A stretch of DNA of 64,000 nucleotides, from assembly GCA_937922235.1 (NCBI GenBank), contig CAKZVC010000018.1:1-64000 (forward strand), given 5' to 3'. The stretch comes from an uncultured Acidimicrobiales bacterium. GTDB taxonomy: Bacteria > Actinomycetota > Acidimicrobiia > Acidimicrobiales > SHLQ01. Below are positions 1,353-3,211 of this stretch, piece by piece. The notes beneath the pieces were generated by a model, which saw only the letters and a list, made by a program, of their open reading frames with translations, ran no database searches and was not told the DNA's origin. The position numbers and the translations under genes were made by a program. Position 1 is the stretch's first letter. Each line of letters begins with the position of its first letter.

Positions 1353-1955
1353 ATGCGTCGTTGGCTCTTCTCGATCTTGGCCTTGGTGGCGATCGTCGCG
1401 TCTGCCTGTGGCGGGACCGATTCGGTTGAAGCTGCGGTAGAGCCGGTGACCCAAGAGATCCAGCTCGTAGAAGCTGATGAGCAACACGATGCCGGGGACA
1501 ACCAGTCTGAGGCCGACCTCGTCGAGGAACCCACCGAGGTAGTCGAAGAGTCGGTCGAGCCAGCACCGTTGCGAACTGGTCGTGAGGCGATTCTCGCCAA
1601 TCACACCGAAGGTAAGCCGTATGTGCTCTGGTACTGGGGAGCGCATTGAGGCATCTGTCGTGAAGAGTCCGCTGCGGTCGCATGGGCATCAAGACAGAAC
1701 ACCGGCGTAGAGATCATCGGTGTGCCAAACCCCGACGATGGCGACGATGCCGATCGTCAGAAGTTCATGGATCAAATGAGCACCCAGGTCAGCCACGTGC
1801 TCGACGACCCGGACGAGTTCTGGCGTGCCCATGGCGTGTTCGGCAACCCAGCATCGGTGTTCGTCTCCGCCGACGGCTCAACCGAGGTTCATCTCGGAGC
1901 CTTAGGTCCTCAGGAATTCGTCGAGCGCCTCAAACAACTCGCCGCCACCGCCTAG
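1353..1955 (+). CDS. Candidate selenoprotein: thioredoxin/TlpA-like lipoprotein with in-frame UGA at the active site
   Basis: Two open segments share one frame, separated by a single TGA at 1647-1649. Read through, they give a 200-residue protein with Sec at residue 99. Residues 1-20 are a lipoprotein signal (ALVAIVASAC), then an acidic linker, then a thioredoxin fold. PYVLWYWGAH precedes the UGA and GICREESAAVAWAS follows it, so the redox motif reads U-G-I-C where relatives have C-x-x-C. The fold continues with GVEIIGVPNPDD, the cis-Pro segment FGNPASVFV and a closing helix ending at 1955. The predicted role is an exported thiol-disulfide or peroxide-reducing protein. Alternatives are a nonsense-mutated pseudogene or a sequencing error, but a stop falling exactly on the catalytic Cys codon argues against both. 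A standard gene caller would report only 1353-1649 or a GTG-start fragment at 1722. Confidence 0.72.
1647..1690 (+). promoter_or_regulatory. Possible bacterial SECIS element downstream of the UGA
   Basis: After the UGA (1647-1649) the RNA can form a hairpin whose tip is UGC-[GGUC]-GCA, with loop 1676-1679. Bulged pairing continues below it: C1672-G1684, C1669/C1670-G1685/G1686, G1667-C1687, and A1666/G1665 with U1689/C1690. There is an unpaired U at 1683. The GGUC loop lies 26 nt after the UGA. Known E. coli fdhF SECIS has a GGUC apical loop on a UGC-type stem with a bulged U, 18 nt after its UGA. The lower stem here is imperfect and was paired by eye only. Confidence 0.5.
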
Positions 1956-2002: not shown

Positions 2003-3211
2003 TCACAGATCGGTGGTTTCGTCGAAGACTTCACCTTCGGTGGTGTCATCTCCGTCGAGGTCGTGAACTGGCAGCGTGCCGGCAACGACCGATGTACCGC
2101 TCGGAATCGGCGGTCCGAGACGTGTCAGCGGGCCTTCCTCGATGGCATAGCGCTCGCCCGATGCGGAGATGATGCCCTGTGCAGTCGCCGCTGCGGGGAG
2201 CGCGAGCAGCGCTCCAACCGGTCCGAGAACCGACGCCCCAGCAAGGACCGAGCCGAACGACACCGCCGGGTGAATCTTGAGTGTTCGTGAGTCGATGCGG
2301 GGCGCGAGGAGGTAGTTCTCGAACTGCTGGTACCCAATCATGAACAGCACTGCCCACAGTGCCTTGGTTGGGGATTCGAGCAGGGTCAATATCAGCGGTA
2401 GCGAACCGGCAATGTACACACCGACGACCGGCACGAACTGGCTGACCACGCCAACCCAGATCGCGAGTGCCAGGGGGAAGGGCACGCCGATGATCGAGAA
2501 CGCAATCCAGGTGATGAACGAACTGATCAACGCAAGCAGCGTTCGAGACAGGATGTAACCGCCGGTCTTTTGGATGGCGAGATCCCATACGCCGAGCACT
2601 CGACGCTGGCGATCGGGCTTGAGACGCGCGCAGATCGTGCGCCGAAGGCGAGGTCCGTCGGAGGTGAGGTAGAAGGTGAAGAGCGCAACCGTGAAGATGT
2701 CGAAGACAAGCCCGACGACGGTGGCGCCGAGCCCGACCACGTTGTTCGCAAGCCCGGTCAATTGCTGGCCAAGACCATCGTCGGAGAGGAAGCGGTCGCG
2801 CACCTGATCGAGGTCGACACTTTCGTCGAGGTTTCGCTGCAACCACGCTTCTGCATCATCGATGATCTGGGGTGCGTCCTTCACGAACTCGGTTGTCTGC
2901 TCGGCAAGCACCCGACCAACGATCCAGCCGAATGCGACAATCGCCGTAAGCGCCAGACCGAACATGATGAGCGTGCCGAAGCCTCGGCGTACTCCTCGAC
3001 GCTCGAGCCAGTTCACGGCTGGTTCGAGAGCGAACGAGAAGAAGAACGAGATCAGGATCGTGACCAGGAAGTTCGAGAGACTCTCAAAGAGACGTTGCAA
3101 CACCCATATCGCAATGAGCCCAAGCCAGAACAAGGCCACGGCCCGAGGAACCCAAGGGGGCATCTTGTTGTCGTCGGGGAGCTGCTGCGCCACCGGCGCT
3201 TCCGTCGTCAT
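2003..3211 (-). CDS. AI-2E family transporter (PerM/YdiK-like permease)
   Basis: A 402-residue polytopic inner-membrane protein of the AI-2E exporter/PerM family, whose characterised members export autoinducer-2 or act as Na+/H+ antiporters. An N-terminal helix cluster near residues 20-95 includes the LEPAVNWLERRGVRRGFGTLI segment. A central soluble stretch (about 105-165) follows. The C-terminal half has the family's hydrophobic runs GVPFPLALAIWVGVVSQFVPVVGVYIAG and QQFENYLLAPRI plus LGPVGALLALP. Substrate cannot be told from sequence. The hydrophilic tail (365-402) is acidic. It is monocistronic, convergent with the gene at 1353. Confidence 0.88.
   Translation of the reverse strand: MTTEAPVAQQLPDDNKMPPWVPRAVALFWLGLIAIWVLQRLFESLSNFLVTILISFFFSFALEPAVNWLERRGVRRGFGTLIMFGLALTAIVAFGWIVGRVLAEQTTEFVKDAPQIIDDAEAWLQRNLDESVDLDQVRDRFLSDDGLGQQLTGLANNVVGLGATVVGLVFDIFTVALFTFYLTSDGPRLRRTICARLKPDRQRRVLGVWDLAIQKTGGYILSRTLLALISSFITWIAFSIIGVPFPLALAIWVGVVSQFVPVVGVYIAGSLPLILTLLESPTKALWAVLFMIGYQQFENYLLAPRIDSRTLKIHPAVSFGSVLAGASVLGPVGALLALPAAATAQGIISASGERYAIEEGPLTRLGPPIPSGTSVVAGTLPVHDLDGDDTTEGEVFDETTDL

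Follow-up and report, generated by a model that had tools for sequence, protein, structure and literature searches.

The window analysed here is the whole 64,000-nucleotide stretch of DNA from an uncultured Acidimicrobiales bacterium (G000:C18:1-64000), whose draft genome comprises 4.40 Mb in 118 contigs and is 87.5% complete. Near the start of the window, on the forward strand at 1353-1955, lies a gene of 200 codons with one in-frame TGA and a terminal TAG, encoding a predicted thioredoxin-fold protein of DsbE/DsbF/TlpA-like type. As an earlier note on this DNA had described, the frame is unbroken but for the TGA at 1647-1649. When this codon is read as selenocysteine (Sec, U), positions 1353-1952 encode 200 residues, of which only residue 99 is U, and TAG follows at 1953-1955. 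The putative Sec codon occupies the first position of a U-G-I-C motif within LWYWGAH-U-GICREES and is followed by the predicted resolving Cys102 (TGT, 1656-1658, forward strand) and by a segment reading FGNPASVFV; these flanks and this segment are as the earlier note had them. The hexapeptide VFGNPA (1836-1853, forward strand), which aligns to the cis-Pro loop of thioredoxin folds in the structures 3ios and 1lu4, contains Pro166, invariant in three of three aligned orthologues.

The N-terminus carries a predicted signal sequence leading to a candidate lipidated cysteine, Cys19 (VASAC; 1353-1409, forward strand). Lipobox consensus sequences have Leu, Val or Ile at position -3, and the candidate MRRWLFSILALVAIVASAC has Ala there. 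The lipobox VASAC is therefore not textbook, but appears plausible. Cys19 is kept in three of three aligned orthologues, in which the linker that follows (residues 20-74; 1410-1574, forward strand) is only weakly conserved; it is variable in sequence, acidic and rich in Ala, Glu and Val. The locus had been proposed to encode a lipid-anchored Sec redox protein. The Sec part of that proposal is strongly supported by the machinery, the UGA and the hairpin described below, while the anchor stands as plausible on the basis of VASAC and its retained cysteine.

A convergent gene for an AI-2E family transporter (2003-3211, reverse strand; PF01594, 7e-66) lies just outside the selenoprotein gene, and a transporter gene of this family adjoins six of the seven loci of the orthologue group defined below (L012-L018, the source locus counted). 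The ribosomal protein gene rpsJ is found at four of the seven, some contigs ending early in both counts. A 147-codon frame on the reverse strand between rpsJ and the selenoprotein gene (831-1274) has a weak FtsH_ext match (E 1.9e-4, below cut-off), and a partial match of this kind also adjoins the L013 orthologue. A promoter and terminator scan of 1200-2100 found neither.

The assignment to the thioredoxin fold was examined with profile, structure and sequence comparisons. The window protein matches Pfam AhpC-TSA (PF00578) at 1.2e-6 (29 bits against a gathering cut-off of 26), and the orthologue P0002 matches only Redoxin, at 16.4 bits, below cut-off. AlphaFold models built from one-sequence and three-sequence input were of low confidence (pLDDT 54; pTM 0.43 and 0.47). 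By sequence, the best solved relatives are the Mycobacterium tuberculosis proteins DsbF (PDB 3ios, 1e-9) and MPT53/DsbE (PDB 1lu4, 1.9e-9), which are, like the window protein (for which export is predicted), exported actinobacterial thioredoxin-fold proteins. Their CxxC aligns with U99-G-I-C102, in agreement with the suggestion that U-G-I-C stands where relatives have C-x-x-C, and the Pro loop matches too. Unlike DsbF and MPT53, which carry C-x-x-C, the window protein has Sec in first place and a long acidic linker after its predicted lipobox.

Membership of a named NCBIfam family is not indicated. Among the NCBIfam models for CcmG/DsbE, ResA and StoA, TIGR00385 gives E 9.6e-8 over the domain but 31.8 bits against a curated cut-off of 123.15, NF002854 gives E 2.2e-8 (34.2 against 170 bits) and NF041202 gives E 3e-5 (24 against 210 bits). 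The selenoprotein models UGSC (NF041046) and HUIPC (NF047660) were unmatched by the window protein (P0001) at E up to 1, and by P0002 and four other members at E up to 0.01. For the window protein and the five relatives scanned, every NCBIfam model stayed below its cut-off.

Conservation of the UGA was assessed by a family search over 98 genomes (the source and 97 relatives), which found matches in 74. Ninety loci were fetched, 30 as automatic picks and 60 picked by hand, mostly from rows flagged for TGA. Of these, 82 gave 84 BLAST rows, three gave partial matches lacking residue 99 and five gave no match. At residue 99 the 84 rows have TGA in 75 cases and TGC or TGT in nine. A profile built from them and run on the eight failed loci and on L106 added 10 rows, eight with TGA (seven of them UxxU) and two with TGC. 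Over all 94 homologue rows that could be placed, the codon is TGA in 83 and TGC or TGT in 11, a ratio that is biased because loci were chosen partly for their TGA flag. No other codon occurs at this site, so that all 94 rows carry a Cys or a putative Sec codon and none the different residue that would have spoken against the earlier note's proposal.

The closest relatives of the window gene form an orthologue group, L012-L018 (L012 being the window gene), in which TGA is present in seven of seven rows and the other six proteins are 52-69% identical to it. These sequences form one clade with support of 100/98 in a tree of the first 84 rows or their TGA rows. As L015 and L016 are nearly identical as proteins, the group amounts to about six independent cases. 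Comparison of the window gene with its six orthologues over the part after the TGA gave dN of 0.17-0.41 and dS of 1.1-1.5, which indicates purifying selection and a region maintained as protein. The UGA is thus conserved in orthologues and aligned with Cys in homologues, a pattern used as a criterion for bacterial selenoproteins. No close orthologue with Cys at site 99 was seen in the 98-genome search or the fetched loci, and among the matches listed a close orthologue is absent from five of the 11 genomes of the source genus.

The placement of TGA at the active-site codon of an intact frame is far beyond chance. This upholds the earlier argument that a stop at precisely this codon is not random, given TGA in six of six close orthologues and purifying selection downstream. 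TGA is also an ordinary stop in this DNA, ending 30 of the 55 stop-to-stop frames of at least 250 codons in the window, counting shadow frames, and apparently also the orthologue on L115. Scanning the window for further read-through TGAs by a crude measure of codon bias gave 11 candidates; since the known TGA at 1647 was not among them, the scan carries no weight in either direction.

The selenoprotein proposal depends on a Sec machinery, and selA, selB, selD and tRNA-Sec(UCA) were all found in the source genome; the joint presence of selA, selB, selC and selD in one genome is a further criterion for bacterial selenoproteins. The selA (451 codons) and selB (570 codons) frames lie on contig C64 and share one base, with selD about 43 kb beyond the pair on the same contig. 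Genes for tRNA-Sec are usually single-copy; the source genome has two with anticodon UCA, scoring 66 and 64.5 bits where the cut-off is 47, at G000:C41:2063-2154 (L001) and 73-164 (L002), in opposite orientation with about 2 kb between them and differing at one of 94 bases. Across the source genome and its 97 relatives, selB was detected in 67 of 98 and selA in 66, of which 65 were above cut-off. Among the matches listed, TGA-bearing copies occur in 40 of the 67 genomes with selB against one of the 31 without detected selB (Fisher p 2.8e-8), the TGA-bearing genomes having been compiled by eye and the TGA position verified in the fetched loci only. Among those matches, 40 of the 41 genomes with TGA-bearing copies have selB, and the remaining one, G012 (84% complete, selB undetected), has selA.

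Downstream of the UGA, the transcript contains a core SECIS-like hairpin, GUCCG-C-UGC-[GGUC]-GCA-UGGGC (1667-1687, forward strand), for which folding, family covariation and synonymous resampling provide the evidence. The core starts 17 nt after the UGA and has eight pairs and a bulged C at 1672, and the loop (1676-1679) lies 26 nt after the UGA. We take the GGUC loop and bulged pyrimidine to resemble the Escherichia coli fdhF element. A 54-nt fold from the UGA (1647-1700) has -19.5 kcal/mol and z -2.11, with seven of 200 shuffles equally good, and other fold lengths are unexceptional (z -0.23 for 81 nt, 0.81 for 44 nt and 0.32 for 36 nt). Since the window's own fold only moderately beats its shuffles, the case for the hairpin rests on the family. 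The published bSECIS model, as given in the accessible part of a recent review, places a 3-9 nt loop with G in its first two positions at 16-37 nt from the UGA, with an upper stem of 4-16 bp and an energy of -7.5 kcal/mol or lower (PMC13188914). The window hairpin fits this model, an outcome in favour of the earlier note, which had proposed a SECIS search of the 60 bases after 1649.

Two hairpin types occur in the family, type A in 51 genes including the window gene and type B in 22. The tree and the hairpin statistics were computed from the 84 BLAST rows, or from the 75 of them with TGA (73 distinct). The division began with the loop sequence, 54 genes having GGTC at the fixed offset and 19 lacking it, and L019, L099 and L102 were then reassigned to B by inspection of sequence and fold. 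Type A has its GGUC loop at a fixed distance from the UGA; the uniformity of its loops (CGGTCG in 50 of 51) and of codon +9 (GCG in 42 of 42) is partly a product of selecting type A by loop, an effect that bears less on the outer stem, on GCA at codon +11 and on type B. In type B a stem of 6 bp carries a loop of 5 nt at 34 nt from the UGA, and this loop starts AGUU in 18 of 22. Examples of type B, including L061, L051 and L019, are found in a related subfamily.

In type A, pairs survive double changes (for example UA to CG or GC, and GC to AU or UA), and cells changed on both sides number 30 against 7.3 +/- 2.1 in shuffles. Pairing also depends on register, with 91.1% of cells paired in type A against at most 54.6% when slid, and 97.7% against at most 50.8% in type B. 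In 2000 synonymous resamplings, type A reached a mean of 263 and a maximum of 282 formed pair cells against the 326 of 357 observed, and type B a mean of 80 and a maximum of 96 against 129 of 132. The observed pairing was thus never reached, which argues that both hairpins are selected beyond the protein code. The Ala codon at +11 is GCA in 41 of 43 type A genes, against 79 of 598 nearby Ala codons. The number of double-change pairs was no higher than in shuffles for type A (4 against 2.7; 102 of 500 as high) or type B (2 against 1.3; 214 of 500), nor was the number of pair types in B (452 of 500). Minimum-energy folding of the 51 nt that follow the UGA recovers the upper stem for 32 of 51 type A genes and, in type B, the stem for 18 of 22; the 22 nt of the type A hairpin folded alone form the stem in 48 of 51. 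In the window gene, one type A pair (columns 26-37) is C-U and unpaired.

These observations bear on how else the in-frame TGA might be explained. A CxxC gene that had acquired a premature stop, or a sequencing error, could be imagined in a draft assembly of 118 contigs and 87.5% completeness, where a single base change turns TGC or TGT into TGA. Against this, the six other orthologues, each from a genome of its own, share TGA at this codon, 83 of 94 homologue rows have it, and purifying selection acts downstream of it. A conserved TGA followed by conserved coding sequence refutes this explanation, to which we attach practically no weight. It is similarly hard to credit that the 98-residue product is the functional one, or that the UGA is a selenium-dependent switch that yields two products. 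Bacteria often insert Sec incompletely, so some shortened product would be expected, but the truncated form would have neither the active site nor the greater part of the domain, and purifying selection acts on what follows the UGA.

Slightly less remote, though still very improbable, is reassignment or leaky reading of UGA, with an amino acid such as Trp, Gly or Cys in place of Sec. The sequence alone is silent on which residue goes in, and the Cys-containing relatives are compatible with Cys insertion. However, TGA is frequent as an ordinary stop in the window, and tRNA-Sec(UCA), selA, selB and selD are all present in the source genome. Moreover, the in-frame TGA lies at a redox-active position with a conserved hairpin after it, in genomes with selB.

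What the DNA itself shows is a gene with a conserved UGA, a conserved RNA hairpin and the Sec machinery; these point to an exported, probably lipid-anchored thiol-disulfide oxidoreductase with selenocysteine as its nucleophilic active-site residue, an interpretation that we consider very probably correct. On reaching the UGA at codon 99, the ribosome would meet a hairpin able to recruit SelB with Sec-tRNA(UCA), and Sec would be inserted. The precursor would then be exported and tethered at Cys19 through the flexible acidic linker. In thioredoxin folds the first Cys of CxxC is the attacking nucleophile. By analogy, Sec99 would attack a substrate disulfide or thiol and Cys102 would resolve the selenenylsulfide, in the manner of the Cys pair of DsbE and DsbF, which are CxxC relatives; a thiol-disulfide oxidoreductase role with a Sec nucleophile is the best reading of these parallels.

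The window gene belongs to a family with many Sec members in this order, and is one of at least five Sec genes of this family in the source genome (C18:1353, the window gene itself; C18:95111; C21:86236; C33:19361; C64:27592). The last of these (L118) is a Sec paralogue reading APWUPHC, with an A-type hairpin, on the same contig as selA, selB and selD. The A-hairpin pattern occurs at three places in the source genome, each UxxC, but the pattern alone proves nothing, since the reversed control gave four matches; the B-hairpin pattern occurs at one place, with no match in its control. The gene at C33:19361 has TGA at both active-site positions (UPTU). In all, 11 such UxxU genes, with TGA in place of the resolving Cys codon, were found in 10 genomes, every one in the source organism's family, f1 (L053 at G000:C33:18400-20600, L065, L069, L085, L087, L104, L105, two at L106, L107 and L108). 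The four present in the tree form one clade (99/98), and the UxxU pair could possibly form a diselenide.

A sample of the phylum gave matches in 86 of 296 genomes. Nine further loci taken from it yielded 10 rows, five with TGA and five with TGC. The seven loci that lie outside the order gave TGA four times and TGC three times; the Sec form therefore also occurs beyond the order. At another locus within the order (L122, G249:C154:60448-61698), a UxxC copy adjoins a CxxC copy, a natural Sec/Cys pair.

Selenoproteins of this general kind have been described before. The accessible text of the GOS marine metagenome survey lists UxxC selenoproteins in Trx-like 1 (COG0526) and Prx-like 1 (pfam00578), with UxxU in a different family, Prx-like 2 (PMC2398784). 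By description, Trx-like 1 and Prx-like 1 are like the window protein in domain class and in having UxxC with Sec first; as described there they are metagenome reads, whereas the window protein has an assigned order, gene neighbourhood and SECIS family. The word "Actinobacteria" is absent from the text of that paper. Table 1 of the 2026 review includes a Prx-like thiol:disulfide oxidoreductase (PF00578; UxxC, UxxU) and a thiol-disulfide isomerase-like protein (cd02966; UxxC) (PMC13188914). Likened by description, the review's Prx-like class corresponds to what is seen here in its PF00578 match, in the UxxC of the window protein and in the UxxU of its paralogues. Words beginning Acidimicrobi, Actinobacteri, Actinomycet or DsbE are absent from the text of the review.

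UxxC thioredoxin-like and Prx-like selenoproteins are thus already catalogued, and the window protein joins them. Less to be expected were several Sec paralogues in a genome, two types of hairpin and 11 UxxU paralogues. Sec use in other Actinobacteria has been published, according to the accessible part of PMC5029168. In the open-licence literature, searched by titles and abstract openings, we found no paper on selenoproteins of Acidimicrobiia or Ilumatobacter, and nothing in that literature that treats MPT53 together with selenoproteins; the Sec use of this lineage seems little described. Whether the Acidimicrobiales possess a selenium-based extracytoplasmic thiol-disulfide network, with several Sec DsbE/DsbF-like paralogues per cell, two SECIS hairpins and a UxxU subfamily in free-living Actinomycetota, is a proposal that we hold to be evenly balanced.

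Free-living Actinomycetota of this kind are mostly taken as aerobic. Aerobic bacteria rarely retain selenoproteins, according to the accessible part of the 2026 review (PMC13188914), and should these organisms prove aerobic, the lineage would put that rule to the test. As standard gene calling cuts genes at UGA, the annotation of this predicted surface redox class is probably wrong in many Acidimicrobiales genomes. As a natural experiment, the family has Sec and Cys forms of one fold within one order, two SECIS types inside one protein family, and a subfamily in which a second Sec was gained.
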